Origin: Dyella halodurans
GTDB lineage: Bacteria > Pseudomonadota > Gammaproteobacteria > Xanthomonadales > Rhodanobacteraceae
Length of the DNA stretch: 64,000 nucleotides
NCBI RefSeq assembly: GCF_026283925.1
Contig: NZ_JAPDPF010000002.1
Location: 1 to 64,000 of the forward strand
Reading direction: 5' to 3'
The first letter of the stretch is position 1; each line of letters begins with the position of its first letter. A program made the translations under genes and the position numbers. The notes under the pieces are model-generated. The model saw only the letters and a program-made list of their open reading frames with translations. It was not told where the DNA came from and made no database searches. Of the stretch, positions 6,182-37,617 are shown piece after piece.

Positions 6182-7291
6182 TCAGTCCCTTGTCTCCTGA
6201 TATAGCCGCGCGTAGCGCCCGGCCATGGCTTCCAGCGAGCCGTTCTGTTCCACCCATGCCCGTGCCGCACGGCCGCAGGCGGTGGCCTGCTGCGGCTCTT
6301 GCAGTAAGGCGAGCATGGCGTCGGCAAGGGCCCGCGGATTGCCTGCGGGTACCAGGCGCCCGGTGCGTCCGTCATGCACGATTTCACCGTTGCCGCCCAC
6401 GTCGGTGGCCACGATCGGCAGCGCCACCGCACAGGCCTCGAGCAAGGCCATCGAATAGCCTTCGCTGCGCGAGGAGAGCACGAACAGGTCCAGTCCCTGC
6501 AGCAATTCATGCACGTCGTTGCGGTCGCCGAGGAAATGCACGCGTTGCTGCACGCCTTCCTCGCGGGCGCATTGCTCGAGCTGTGCACGCAGCTCGCCGT
6601 CGCCGATCAACACCAGGTCCGTGTCCGGACGCAGTGCGTGGATGCGGCGGAAGGCCTGGATCAGGCCGACCTGGTCCTTGGCCCAGTTGAGGCGGCCCAC
6701 ATTGCCGATCAGTCGGCTGTGCGGCGGCAGCTCCAGCGCCTGCAGCAGGCGCTCGCGCATATCGACCGAGGCCTGCGCAAACGTGTCGACCGGAATGCCG
6801 TTGGGTACCACTGTAGCCTTGAGCCCGGGCACGATGCCGCGCGCCACGGCGTCGCGACGGGCGGCTTCGCACACGGTGACGACGGTGTCCGTGTGCGCGA
6901 GCGAACGCCGATAAAGCCATTCGCGGCGCCCCGTGCGCTGGTTGATGCTCATGCCGTGCCGTGTGTTGACGACACGGCGGACACCCAGCCCACAACAGGC
7001 GAGCACGGCCTGGTAGTGCGCCACCGCGTTATGCGTGTGCAGCACCTCGGTACCGTGGCGGCGGATCACCCGTCGCGCCCGCGCCAGCGCACGCAGGTCC
7101 AGTCCTTGCCGTTTGTGGCAGCTGGTGACCGGGATGCCCAGGGTGTCCAGTTCATGCGCCTGCGACCCGGCTTCGAACAGGCACACCACCTGGCAGTGAT
7201 GTCCTTGCCGATGCTGGATTTTCACCAGCTCCAGCACCATGCGTTCCAGGCCGCCGCGATTGAGGTTCTCGACCACGTGGGTAATGTTCAC
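6182..7291 (-). CDS. Glycosyltransferase family 4, resembling exosortase-associated sugar transferases
   Basis: The protein has 369 residues. It opens with ITHVVENLNRGGLERMV, the glycine-rich acceptor loop that recalls the sugar transferases found in PEP-CTERM/exosortase-type polysaccharide loci. The donor site shows IGNVGRLNWAKDQ, RSEGYSMALLEACAVALPIVA and VGGNGEIV. No exosortase gene is visible here, so the similarity may only mean shared ancestry of the sugar machinery. ATGA overlap with the upstream CapK-like ligase. Confidence 0.85.
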   Translation of the reverse strand: MNITHVVENLNRGGLERMVLELVKIQHRQGHHCQVVCLFEAGSQAHELDTLGIPVTSCHKRQGLDLRALARARRVIRRHGTEVLHTHNAVAHYQAVLACCGLGVRRVVNTRHGMSINQRTGRREWLYRRSLAHTDTVVTVCEAARRDAVARGIVPGLKATVVPNGIPVDTFAQASVDMRERLLQALELPPHSRLIGNVGRLNWAKDQVGLIQAFRRIHALRPDTDLVLIGDGELRAQLEQCAREEGVQQRVHFLGDRNDVHELLQGLDLFVLSSRSEGYSMALLEACAVALPIVATDVGGNGEIVHDGRTGRLVPAGNPRALADAMLALLQEPQQATACGRAARAWVEQNGSLEAMAGRYARLYQETRD

Positions 7292-8646
7292 GGCGGCAGC
7301 TCCGAAATGGTGAGCCGCGTCTTGCCACTACGCGTCGGCGGTATGTCGTCGACGAAGTGGCAGTGCACCTCGATGTTGTCGCCGAGGACCTTGTGGATCT
7401 CACGGCGGATCATGGCCAGGGAGTCGTCGGTGAACGCCGCGCCGCGGACCAGTGAGAGATCCAGCCGGTCGAGTTGGCGCTGCACTACCTGATACTGGTT
7501 GACGCCGGGTACTTCCTTGAGCAGGAACGGGAAGAACATGCCGGGGAGGATGCGACCATCGGTCGTGCGGATCGCATCCAGCATGCGCCCTTCGACGCGG
7601 CTGATCAGGGGCAGGCCACGACCGCACACGCATGCCTCGGAAGACGACGTGATCAGGTCGCCGGTGGCGTAGCGGATGAAGGGCATGCCGTAATTGAACA
7701 GATCGGTGACCACCGCCTCGCCGGTATGCGCGTGCTGGTGGGGGCCGCTTGGTGGCAAACGCTCGACCAGCAGATGATCGGCATTCACGTGCATGCCCTT
7801 GCGCTGCTCGCATTCCGCGGCGATGAGCATGAACTCGCGACAGCCGTAGGTATTGAAGGCGGGGCAACCAAAAGCCTCCTCGATGATCCGGCGCTGGAAC
7901 TCGTGCATCGCCTCGCCACAGACGATGAACGCCTGCGGCCGGTGCACGCGTCGCCCGGTAGCCAGCAGCCATTGCGCAAGCCGGAGCAGGGGGCCGAAAT
8001 AGCCGAGCAGGATCTCCGGACGATAGCTGTCGACCAGGTCGGCGTACTCACCGATGTTCGCTTCCGTCATGTGGAAGATGTTTACGATGCGGCGACCAAA
8101 GGCCGCGTGATAAAGGCGGTCCTTCCAGCGTCGCCCCGCGCTGGTCGAGCCGATGCCGGTGCCCCACAGCATCAGGCTGCGCCGGCCCGGGAGCGCGTTG
8201 GCCCAGCCGTAGCCGCGCCACATCACGGCCTGGCGGCGTTCATTGCTCTCGCGTGTAAAGCCGAACTGCAAGGGTTCGCCGGTCGAACCGCTGGTGCTCT
8301 TGTACAACATCTGGTCGCGGCACGACGTGGCCTTCAGCTCATCCGCATGCCTGCGAATGTCGGCCTTGGTCAACAAAGGCAGGCGCGCATAGTCTTCCAG
8401 GCAGCGGATATCGTCCGGCGTGATGCCGAGCTCGCGCCACTGGCGTTGATAGAACGGCACGTCGCGATAACAGTGCTCCAGCAACAGCTTGAGTCGTGTC
8501 CATTGCAGCTCGGCGATCTGTTGCGGCGAGAGCCATTGCGTACGTTCGTATTCGGCCAGCCAGGTCAACGTGCGACGGCGCATCAGGCCGCTCTCGTAGG
8601 CGGGATATAGCACTCGGCGAAAGGCTGCTTCATACCATCCACTCAT
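7288..8646 (-). CDS. CapK/PaaK-like AMP-forming ligase, copy 1
   Basis: This 452-residue member of the phenylacetate-CoA ligase (PaaK/CapK) branch of adenylate-forming enzymes activates a carboxylate as acyl-AMP and passes it to a thiol. Visible motifs: the ATP loop KSTSGSTGEP, the Y-G-C-R-E-F adenine-site block, RYATGD and the C-terminal S-G-K-T-R lysine motif. I chose the ATG at 8644-8646 because GGGGGAG stands seven bases upstream and because the product then matches copy 2 exactly in length and opening (MSGWYE). A longer frame to 8721 has no good ribosome site. CapK-type proteins recur in capsule/exopolysaccharide loci with unproven substrates. Confidence 0.82.
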   Translation of the reverse strand: MSGWYEAAFRRVLYPAYESGLMRRRTLTWLAEYERTQWLSPQQIAELQWTRLKLLLEHCYRDVPFYQRQWRELGITPDDIRCLEDYARLPLLTKADIRRHADELKATSCRDQMLYKSTSGSTGEPLQFGFTRESNERRQAVMWRGYGWANALPGRRSLMLWGTGIGSTSAGRRWKDRLYHAAFGRRIVNIFHMTEANIGEYADLVDSYRPEILLGYFGPLLRLAQWLLATGRRVHRPQAFIVCGEAMHEFQRRIIEEAFGCPAFNTYGCREFMLIAAECEQRKGMHVNADHLLVERLPPSGPHQHAHTGEAVVTDLFNYGMPFIRYATGDLITSSSEACVCGRGLPLISRVEGRMLDAIRTTDGRILPGMFFPFLLKEVPGVNQYQVVQRQLDRLDLSLVRGAAFTDDSLAMIRREIHKVLGDNIEVHCHFVDDIPPTRSGKTRLTISELPP

Positions 8647-8717
8647 CACGGCGCTCCCCCGTGTGGTGCCTGCTCGAACGTCTCCGAGCCCAGGCCTGGC
8701 GATCACGTGAACCATGC

Positions 8718-36310: not shown

Positions 36311-36339
36311 TGAGGCGATTCCTATGGATCAGAGCATCC

Positions 36340-37617
36340 CTACAGACGGCCATCGACATCGGCGCGGGGAAGTACGTACTTAACGTCGTAGACCACCGAT
36401 GCGGGCTTGCAGAAGGCGCGAATACCCGTGGCGCCCAGCGCGACGAACTGGTGATGACCGACGGCAACGATCACGGCGTCATAGCTGCCGGCCGGCGGTT
36501 CCGCGATCGGGGTGAGTGCATATTCGTGTTCGGCCTCCGCCGCGTTGATCCACGGATCGTGCACATCGATCTCGGCGTTGTAGCCACGCAACGCGTGCAC
36601 GATGTCCACCACGCGCGTATTGCGCAGGTCCGGGCAGTTTTCCTTGAAGGCGAGGCCGAGTATCAGCACTTTCGCGCGCACCGGGTTGATGCCCTTGCGC
36701 ACCATCAGGCGGATCACCTCGTTGGCGATATGCGGGCCCATGCTGTCGTTGGTGCGGCGTCCCGCCAGGATCACGTCCGGGTGGTGGCCCACTTCCTGCG
36801 CCTTGTGGGTGAGGTAGTAGGGGTCCACGCTGATGCAATGGCCACCGACGAGGCCGGGGCGGAATGGCAGGAAATTCCACTTGGTGCCGGCGGCCTGCAG
36901 TACTTCCAGGGTGTCGATGCCGAGTTTGTTGAACAGGATGGAGAGATCGTTCACCAGCGCGATGTTGAGGTCGCGCTGGGTGTTCTCGATGACCTTGGCG
37001 GCTTCGGCCACTTTCAGCGAGCTGGCCTTGTGCGTGCCGGCCGTGATGATGGAGCCGTACAAGCGATCGACGAAATCCGCCGTCTCCGGCGTCGAGCCCG
37101 AGGTCACCTTGAGGATGCTGGTGACGCGATGCTGTTTGTCGCCCGGGTTGATCCGCTCGGGGCTGTAGCCTGCGAAGAAGTCGCGGTTGTAGACCAGGCC
37201 CGAGCCTCTCTCCAGGATCGGCACGCACACTTCTTCCGTGCAACCCGGATACACGGTGGATTCGTACACCACGACGTCGCCGCGCTTGAGCACCTTGCCC
37301 AGGGTTTCGCTGGCGCGGATCAGCGGGGTCAGGTCCGGCCGCTTGGCCGAATCGATCGGCGTGGGCACGGTCACGATATAGACATTGCGATCGGCCAGGT
37401 CGGCGAGATCGGCACTGAAGCGCAGGTGTTCCACCTGTGCCAGCTCATCGGCGCTCACTTCCAGGGTGTTGTCGCGCCCTTCGCGCAATTCGGCGATGCG
37501 CCCTTGGTTGATGTCGAAGCCGACGGTGTCATAGCGCTTGCCAAACTCGACCGCCAGCGGGAGACCGACGTAGCCAAGACCAATGACGGCGAGCTTGGTG
37601 CTTTCCAGATTCTGCAT
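36340..37617 (-). CDS. Nucleotide-sugar dehydrogenase, TviB/WbpA type
   Basis: The protein has 425 residues. It catalyses two-step NAD-dependent oxidation of a UDP-hexose(amine) at C6 to the uronic acid. GLGYVG (13-18) binds NAD; STVYPG, the E-N-T-Q-R segment and the catalytic cysteine C261 in GGHCISVDPYY follow. The sequence resembles the Vi-antigen TviB branch (UDP-GlcNAc/GalNAc dehydrogenases) more than UDP-glucose dehydrogenase. I start at ATG 37615-37617; an in-frame GTG at 37650 lies inside a tandem repeat and is unlikely. It is the first gene of the accessory block, so the locus promoter should be in the spacer upstream. Confidence 0.88.
   Translation of the reverse strand: MQNLESTKLAVIGLGYVGLPLAVEFGKRYDTVGFDINQGRIAELREGRDNTLEVSADELAQVEHLRFSADLADLADRNVYIVTVPTPIDSAKRPDLTPLIRASETLGKVLKRGDVVVYESTVYPGCTEEVCVPILERGSGLVYNRDFFAGYSPERINPGDKQHRVTSILKVTSGSTPETADFVDRLYGSIITAGTHKASSLKVAEAAKVIENTQRDLNIALVNDLSILFNKLGIDTLEVLQAAGTKWNFLPFRPGLVGGHCISVDPYYLTHKAQEVGHHPDVILAGRRTNDSMGPHIANEVIRLMVRKGINPVRAKVLILGLAFKENCPDLRNTRVVDIVHALRGYNAEIDVHDPWINAAEAEHEYALTPIAEPPAGSYDAVIVAVGHHQFVALGATGIRAFCKPASVVYDVKYVLPRADVDGRL

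Follow-up and report, generated by a model that had tools for sequence, protein, structure and literature searches.

An NRPS-PKS cassette in the exopolysaccharide locus of Dyella halodurans and its relatives

The stretch of Dyella halodurans DNA analysed here (the window, 64,000 nucleotides, to which all coordinates refer) forms the start of contig C18 (714,330 bases) in a genome of 4.69 Mb and contains an exopolysaccharide (EPS) locus that runs on the minus strand from 37617 down to 265 and comprises nucleotide-sugar, priming, glycosyltransfer, deacetylase, Wzy-type and CapK-like genes. The open reading frames of a polyketide synthase (PKS_A) and a non-ribosomal peptide synthetase (NRPS_B) lie on the same strand, with polysaccharide genes on both sides, an arrangement that had been proposed from the sequence alone and was confirmed by Pfam and NCBIfam searches (TviB and the priming glycosyltransferase above their cut-offs; epimerase, Wzy_C, CapK-like proteins, glycosyltransferases and deacetylases). 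This raises the question of whether the NRPS-PKS and the sugar genes represent one pathway or two neighbouring ones. The sequence-only reading had favoured a single pathway; linked evolution was recovered (gene order kept across genera, and a differently arranged locus in Variovorax paradoxus ISL-81), and each half was also found alone. Judged from gene content and order, the data support one evolutionarily linked system, and the NRPS-PKS very probably belongs functionally with the exopolysaccharide in this family. The assembly-line genes are as follows, with A denoting adenylation, C condensation, PCP peptidyl carrier protein, KS ketosynthase, AT acyltransferase and ACP acyl carrier protein domains:

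20086..27372, minus strand: PKS_A, 2428 aa; unassigned N-terminal stretch, amino-acid A, PCP, KS, AT, ACP, MycA-type class-III aminotransferase (Pfam; TIGR01733 above cut-off)
13670..20089, minus strand: NRPS_B, 2139 aa; C-A-PCP-C-A(degenerate)-PCP, no thioesterase, basic tail (Pfam)

Association of the assembly line with polysaccharide genes

Conservation was assessed in 147 genomes of the Rhodanobacteraceae family, including 12 of the same genus (own genome counted). The ACP-aminotransferase part of PKS_A was matched at 900 bits or more in 51 genomes and at 400–700 bits in 15 more, and all 12 same-genus genomes contained the CapK-like gene, PKS_A (aminotransferase part at least 1347 bits) and the hydrolase gene h1, which is described below. 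CapK was found in 51 genomes, the sugar-core protein U410 in 55 and the priming glycosyltransferase in 80. The distance between PKS_A and CapK was 9–15 kb in 39 of the 42 genomes with both genes on the same contig and 32–37 kb in the remaining three (45 genomes carry both; they lie on separate contigs in G087, G106 and G131), and the priming glycosyltransferase was located less than 25 kb from PKS_A in 51 of 53 genomes with both on one contig. Among 18 relatives that were mapped, the gene order of the window was kept in G102, G021, G113, G051, G047, G038 and G010, with variants in G082, G005 and G003.

In G102, the closest relative, the gene for GT2 a is followed by a convergent export operon with the order Wzx, unassigned protein, epimerase, two alpha/beta hydrolases, porin-like, Wzz-like and Wza-like. 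In the own genome, the genes for Wzx, the epimerase, the hydrolases h1 and h2, and the porin-like, Wzz-like and Wza-like proteins are found at C20:1-11057, the start of contig C20, and we infer that the locus was severed by a contig end in this assembly. Wzx (PF01943) and Wza (PF02563) of G102 scored above cut-off, and the own copies on C20 are 93% and 98% identical to them; the Wzz/Wzc-type protein reached 21.1 bits with PF02706 in G102, below the cut-off of 25.5, and its own copy is 97% identical. Together with the priming glycosyltransferase and the Wzy-type polymerase/ligase, the Wzx flippase and Wza-type export identify this as a Wzx/Wzy-dependent EPS locus. Of the extent initially proposed for it (6182..37617), the genes stand as placed; the limits were too narrow, since the locus runs on to 265 and has its export half at C20:1-11057.

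A close association was observed for h1. Genomes were counted as NRPS-PKS-positive at 400 bits or more to a 709-residue ACP-aminotransferase query (66 genomes), with weaker class-III aminotransferase matches (78 of 144 matching genomes) excluded, and as h1-positive at E<=1e-25 (61 of 147; 64 at 1e-8). On this basis, both were present in 60 genomes and neither in 80; the NRPS-PKS occurred without h1 in six and h1 alone in one (G139), which is 77% complete. Within the 55 genomes containing U410, h1 accompanied the NRPS-PKS in 49 of 49 cases and was present in one of the six genomes without it. It was retained even where 76–465 kb separate it from the NRPS-PKS (four genomes). In G102 and G021, both with NRPS-PKS, the h1/h2 pair is inserted with 4-bp overlaps between epimerase and porin in the export operon; in the four clusters lacking the NRPS-PKS (G004, G026, G030, G099) this operon is otherwise alike, the epimerase adjoins the porin, and neither hydrolase gene lies between them (4/4). 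Loci of Dokdonella, Variovorax, Xenophilus and others instead have the pair after NRPS_B or its phosphopantetheinyl transferase, and Pseudoxanthomonas helianthi has h2 fused to the C-terminus of the NRPS.

The sugar core was found without the NRPS-PKS in G004, G026, G030 and G099 and, by whole-genome search, in G121, and the priming glycosyltransferase is present in each of these genomes. The stretches fetched from the first four gave no match to the cupins, the exported protein Exp270, the phosphopantetheinyl transferase, the GMC oxidoreductase or the membrane glycosyltransferase GT2m, and for PKS_A and NRPS_B they yielded only matches of 26–27% to an acyl-ligase-like frame (G004, G099, G030). 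In G026, the DnaJ gene adjoins the deacetylase at the position where Dyella carries Exp270, the cupins, PKS_A, NRPS_B and GT2m. Deacetylases, which in the sequence-only reading might expose sugar amines for acylation by a condensation domain, occur in NRPS-less clusters as well. In the NRPS-less locus L058 (G004), a TIGR03098-like acyl ligase is encoded together with a carrier-like protein of 82 aa, an amidotransferase resembling asparagine synthase and a NadE-like protein, perhaps a simpler module for acyl chemistry that stands in for the NRPS-PKS. Conversely, PKS_A at 900 bits or more was found without U410 in G098, G130, G001, G027, G024 and G128, and the NRPS-PKS is present without this sugar core in G098 and G130 (genome-wide, U410 as marker) and in L123 (within 10 kb). 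A comparison of relatives for co-occurrence of the two gene sets, which had been suggested together with the single-pathway view, thus returned repeated co-location and also sugar-only (G004, G026, G030, G099, G121) and cassette-only (G098, G130, L123) cases. Because relatives hold the sugar genes without the NRPS-PKS, the sugar backbone appears independent of it, and the NRPS-PKS is best described, from these distributions, as an optional add-on cassette to the polysaccharide pathway rather than as part of backbone synthesis.

That the two halves are unrelated clusters which became neighbours by chance in this lineage is most improbable. Each half does occur alone in some relatives, but the co-location recurs in several genera and in the differently ordered Variovorax EPS operon, h1/h2 lie inside the sugar-export operon (G102, G021) and yet follow the NRPS-PKS in presence and absence, and polysaccharide genes were detected by the same test in 0 of 19 arbitrary 20-kb stretches of relatives (round coordinates). 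An add-on cassette is preferred over unrelated clusters because h1/h2 are missing together with the NRPS-PKS from the NRPS-less clusters. The notion of a misplaced neighbour was rejected on the basis of the family search and the Variovorax gene order.

Several genes were considered as partners of the cassette. Its most constant companions are h1 and the priming glycosyltransferase; the latter was rejected as a cassette gene, since it is also present in the genomes of NRPS-less clusters (on another contig or distant in G026, G099 and G121). The phosphopantetheinyl transferase was dropped as a constant companion, with no match in the fetched NRPS-PKS stretches of G051, G047, G082 and G010. The case for CapK as the cassette's own partner was weakened by its occurrence without NRPS-PKS in G004, G026, G030, G099, G121 and G139.

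Beyond the family, a single strand of Variovorax paradoxus ISL-81 carries, in this order, PKS, NRPS, a phosphopantetheinyl-transferase-like gene, h2, h1, Wza, Wzc, priming glycosyltransferase, epimerase, an unassigned protein, a glycosyltransferase, two unassigned proteins, a Wzx-like protein (below cut-off) and GT4. The PKS-NRPS pair therefore heads an EPS operon of different order, in which h1 and Wza overlap by 4 bp; Wza is found at the same place in five of ten Variovorax loci (L148-L152). In Thiomonas (L116/L175), Wza-like and Wzz-like genes precede PKS_A on the same contig. A polysaccharide gene was detected near the NRPS-PKS in 49 of 80 named loci, 12 of which are shorter than 15 kb: in all 22 of the nearest (L073-L094) and in 27 of the 58 others. 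A Wza match was obtained in 25 of 26 named genomes, mostly not close to the cassette, and was used where the contig was clearly shared (G157, G147, and hits inside loci); L177/L178, from a contig of 678193 rather than 965413 bases, were left out for L137.

A number of observations weigh against the preferred reading set out below, a peptide attached to the polysaccharide. Thirty-one of the 80 loci showed no polysaccharide gene within 10 kb, including the other five Variovorax loci (L123, L124, L130, L133, L137), and only 12 of the 37 loci L116-L152, mostly from Burkholderiales and metagenome-assembled genomes, had one; in such loci the product of the cassette may be free. Six genomes have the aminotransferase match without h1 (G024, G128, G028, G036, G040, G114); in G028, G036, G040 and G114 the aminotransferase is 40–45% identical and the priming glycosyltransferase is missing. 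An ordinary thioesterase-like end, assigned by eye, replaces the NRPS tail in G024, L129 and L135. Fisher values for the co-occurrence are inflated by shared ancestry. Distance tests against PKS_A gave moderate values for WzyLig (0.55), CapK (0.47), GT4a (0.46) and TviB (0.39) and no match for U410 (0.03); some sugar-sugar pairs performed no better (TviB-CapK, 0.18). These tests covered at most 11 genomes (five for h1) and, given their mixed outcome, were not used as main evidence.

In the main rival explanation, the cassette makes a free small molecule (a signal, metallophore, surfactant or antibiotic) that is merely co-regulated with the exopolysaccharide, a situation proposed before for N-acyl amino acids whose genes adjoin PEP-CTERM/EPS genes. 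It is consistent with the several Variovorax-type loci in which PKS-NRPS-PPT-h2-h1 stand without sugar genes within 10 kb, with the absence of the U410 sugar core from G098, G130, G024 and G128, and with the location of Stieleria N-acyltyrosine genes near EPS genes, for which a functional link was suggested (PMC7293339). It is nevertheless regarded as doubtful, though by no means negligible: the cassette is joined to EPS genes at the operon level in two orders, and gene order is kept across genera; all 61 genomes with h1 also carry the EPS priming glycosyltransferase; and a Pfam scan of the window genes from 265 to 37650 revealed no dedicated small-molecule exporter.

Assembly line, hydrolase pair and putative product

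The loading domain of PKS_A is of the amino-acid adenylation type (419 bits, cut-off 317). Its pocket code, DALTLGGTF, fits the pattern DA[LF]T[LFIVM]G[GP]TF shared by 57 of 65 sequences (own plus 64) and is tentatively taken to specify an aliphatic residue, for instance valine. The AT domain carries the motif HAFH, which we take to indicate malonyl-CoA, and the best PDB match of the aminotransferase is MycA (6kfm, 422 bits). The code of the first A domain of NRPS_B, DIMQASGVY here and starting with DILQ in many relatives, resembles glycine-type codes. The predicted product would be a short peptide that contains a beta,gamma-diamino unit.

The second A domain of NRPS_B was compared in 88 of 92 sequences (91 others plus own; the divergent or short G003, G044, L098 and L146 were omitted), with some strains entering twice because they carry both a G and an L handle. 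In the second A domain of the window, the positions of A3 Lys, A5 Glu, A7 Asp and A10 Lys are occupied by L, D, C and E, and the catalytic residues are thus lost. Across the 88 sequences, the domain is intact at these four positions in 21, degenerate in 26 (own included) and deleted in 41, whereas the second C domain retains its His in 87 and the second carrier its Ser in all 88. Retention of the module without its A domain implies that the carrier is loaded via another route or that the C domain uses another acceptor. In the D. jiangningensis and Rhodanobacter loci, among others, the second A domain is intact and the module may be an ordinary one. No thioesterase or reductase domain was detected by Pfam after the last carrier of NRPS_B, and the protein ends 59 residues beyond the last carrier Ser, in a short tail that is basic and bears a hydrophobic-Gly motif (13670-13710; 12 residues in the own protein); this tail was recognised by a simple pattern in 69 of 88 sequences and is possibly a docking or membrane-binding peptide.

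In h1, Cys111 and His243 are invariant (35/35 each), and in h2 the nucleophile is lost, its position being occupied by Arg in 31 of 34 sequences and by Gly in three. The best-matching families of the G102 pair are TIGR03100 (88 bits, cut-off 168) and TIGR03101 (83 bits, cut-off 203). The predicted fold of h1 is that of an ordinary alpha/beta hydrolase, with esterases and lipases as nearest structures, and does not separate a hydrolase from an acyltransferase. An h2-like protein is also contained within a longer, 552-aa frame with additional N-terminal sequence in L138 (Archangium metagenome-assembled genome, 11595-13253). The simplest account of the pair, as far as can be judged from residues and co-occurrence, is a trans-acting release or transfer enzyme with a non-catalytic partner.

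A possible sequence of events can be outlined. The carriers would be armed by the phosphopantetheinyl transferase; PKS_A, whose domains are observed and whose substrates are predicted from pocket codes, would load an aliphatic amino acid, extend it with malonyl-CoA and aminate the beta carbon; and NRPS_B, which lacks a thioesterase, would add a small amino acid and stop at a carrier protein. Hydroxylation of bound residues is probably the role of the cupins. The peptide could then be released by the separate pair of h1 (Cys-His) and h2, paired here from their co-occurrence, and, most likely, transferred to a lipid-linked sugar repeat or to the polymer, and the resulting peptide-decorated, probably amine-bearing polysaccharide would exit through Wzx/Wzy/Wza. 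This preferred explanation, a Wzx/Wzy EPS locus with an optional peptide cassette whose product would be attached to the polysaccharide or its lipid-linked repeat, is about as likely as not. Somewhat more tentative is the generalisation to a class of exopolysaccharides decorated by an interchangeable NRPS-PKS cassette, in which the h1/h2 pair would move an amine-bearing peptide from its carrier to the lipid-linked glycan before export and hydrolases 1/2 of exosortase-type loci would do likewise for simpler acyl groups.

Alternatively, the product might serve as a lipid- or peptide-type carrier, primer or terminator that anchors the polysaccharide chains instead of forming a side chain. The priming glycosyltransferase lies at 8–12 kb from PKS_A in seven family genomes without the U410 core, and the Wzy_C family includes ligases that move glycans to other acceptors. 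An anchor is nonetheless improbable, given that the sugar core and priming glycosyltransferase occur without the cassette (G004, G026, G030, G099, G121) and that PKS_A is loaded through an amino-acid A domain rather than a fatty acyl ligase. Were the peptide attached as a side chain, polysaccharides would gain assembly-line decorations with a chemistry beyond acetyl, pyruvyl and single amino acids, relatives of the hydrolase 1/2 family would acquire a testable role, and it would be explained why the NRPS keeps its C and carrier domains while discarding an A domain and the thioesterase. If the product is free, it would still represent a conserved, biofilm-linked metabolite of several culturable soil genera.

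Layout of the locus

The remaining genes of the locus in the window are:

36340..37617, minus strand: UDP-GlcNAc 6-dehydrogenase, TviB type (NF011729 619 bits, cut-off 592)
35300..36310, minus strand: nucleotide-sugar epimerase (PF01370; GalE/TviC-like, below cut-offs)
33512..35188, minus strand: GMC oxidoreductase (PF05199)
32751..33506, minus strand: 4'-phosphopantetheinyl transferase (PPTase; PF01648)
31168..32568, minus strand: priming glycosyltransferase, EpsB_2 type (TIGR03013 559 bits, cut-off 393)
30497..31171, plus strand: DnaJ-like protein (PF00226 28.4 bits, cut-off 27.8)
29573..30292, minus strand: Exp270, exported protein of no known family; 41 similar frames in fetched loci; accompanies the NRPS-PKS
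28554..29492, minus strand: Cup2, Cupin_8-like (PF13621 26.9 bits, just under the 27.4 cut-off; 33% identity to Cup1)
27415..28332, minus strand: Cup1, Cupin_8/JmjC-type, probable Fe(II)/2-oxoglutarate hydroxylase (PF13621)
12509..13639, minus strand: membrane GT2 (GT2m; PF00535)
11406..12515, minus strand: polysaccharide deacetylase 1 (PF01522)
10153..11418, minus strand: Wzy_C family polymerase/ligase (PF04932 above cut-off)
8718..10076, minus strand: CapK/PaaK-like adenylate-forming enzyme 1 (best NCBIfam matches below cut-off)
7288..8646, minus strand: CapK/PaaK-like enzyme 2, tandem copy (67% identity to copy 1)
6182..7291, minus strand: GT4 a (PF00534)
5000..6178, minus strand: GT4 b (PF13692)
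4362..5003, minus strand: polysaccharide deacetylase 2, NodB-like (PF01522)
3187..4365, minus strand: GT4 c (PF13692)
1958..3190, minus strand: U410, among the most conserved sugar-core proteins (no Pfam/NCBIfam match; longer frame 1958-3511 scanned)
1011..1961, minus strand: methyltransferase-like (PF08241)
265..1014, minus strand: GT2 a, final gene before the contig end (PF00535)

PKS_A and NRPS_B overlap by 4 bp, and the NRPS_B stop lies 30 bp from the start of the membrane GT2, the distance given initially; the PPTase, the GMC oxidoreductase and the two cupins were likewise found interspersed at the positions claimed. From PKS_A through GT2 a, every neighbouring pair overlaps or is separated by less than 80 bp. 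The locus is not a single operon, as had been assumed, because the DnaJ-like gene (30497-31171), on the opposite strand and tail to tail with the priming glycosyltransferase, separates the unit from TviB to that gene from the rest. As read from gene orientation, it comprises at least two transcription units, one from TviB to the priming glycosyltransferase (37617-31168) and one from the exported protein to GT2 a (30292-265). Terminator-like sites were as frequent as in shuffled sequence (9 vs 9.9), with none in the NRPS-GT2 gap, and no promoter-like site was found, an outcome that is uninformative in a GC-rich genome.

The DnaJ-like protein has, by eye, one hydrophobic stretch, and its gene recurs in 13 of the 18 relatives that were mapped, among them some without the NRPS-PKS. 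A confident beta-sandwich was predicted for Exp270, and comparison of the model with the PDB gave no convincing match. U410 is, by eye, HxH-rich and perhaps a deacetylase-like metalloenzyme. The CapK-like genes form a tandem pair in the window (7288-10076), and G102 has one match genome-wide. Directly upstream of the locus (38800-44165, minus strand) lie genes for PPK2, a Na/Pi cotransporter and a P-type cation ATPase.

Comparison with known systems

PKS_A shares with MycA of the mycosubtilin/iturin synthases the succession KS-AT-ACP followed by a class-III beta-aminotransferase. It differs in starting with an amino-acid A domain, where MycA has a fatty acyl ligase, so that no lipid tail is expected, and no cis-acting thioesterase is present here; an iturin-like lipopeptide was rejected on account of the loading domain. 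With the EPS loci of the XrtA/PEP-CTERM type, the locus has in common the TIGR03013 priming glycosyltransferase, and it is distinguished from them by the NRPS-PKS; its hydrolase pair has TIGR03100/TIGR03101 as best families, at scores below the curated cut-offs. Exosortase (PF09721) was found in 22 of the 147 family genomes, none of them among the 12 of the same genus (own genome included), and a PEP-CTERM/exosortase system was rejected for the own genome.

In glycopeptidolipids and glycosylated lipopeptides, an NRPS product is joined to sugars by placing single sugars on the finished peptide; the present locus, by contrast, contains a full Wzx/Wzy polymer-export system. The sugar supply resembles that of Vi-like aminouronates, with a TviB-type dehydrogenase above cut-off and a GalE/TviC-like epimerase below the cut-offs. 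Unlike in Vi, genes of the Wzx/Wzy type with several glycosyltransferases are found here, and neither a Vi-type polymerase nor an ABC exporter was detected among the genes scanned.

Among the matches listed from the open-licence full-text literature, no description of such a locus was found. The nearest precedent in those matches concerns stieleriacines, whose N-acyl amino acid synthase genes lie beside PEP-CTERM/EPS genes (PMC7293339); small acyl-amino-acid chemistry is linked genetically to EPS genes in both cases. The enzymes there are of another class, compared with a multimodular NRPS-PKS and trans-acting hydrolases inside the locus here. The parts of the Dyella locus are of known kinds, and their combination with a tightly co-occurring pair of trans-acting hydrolases appears to be new.

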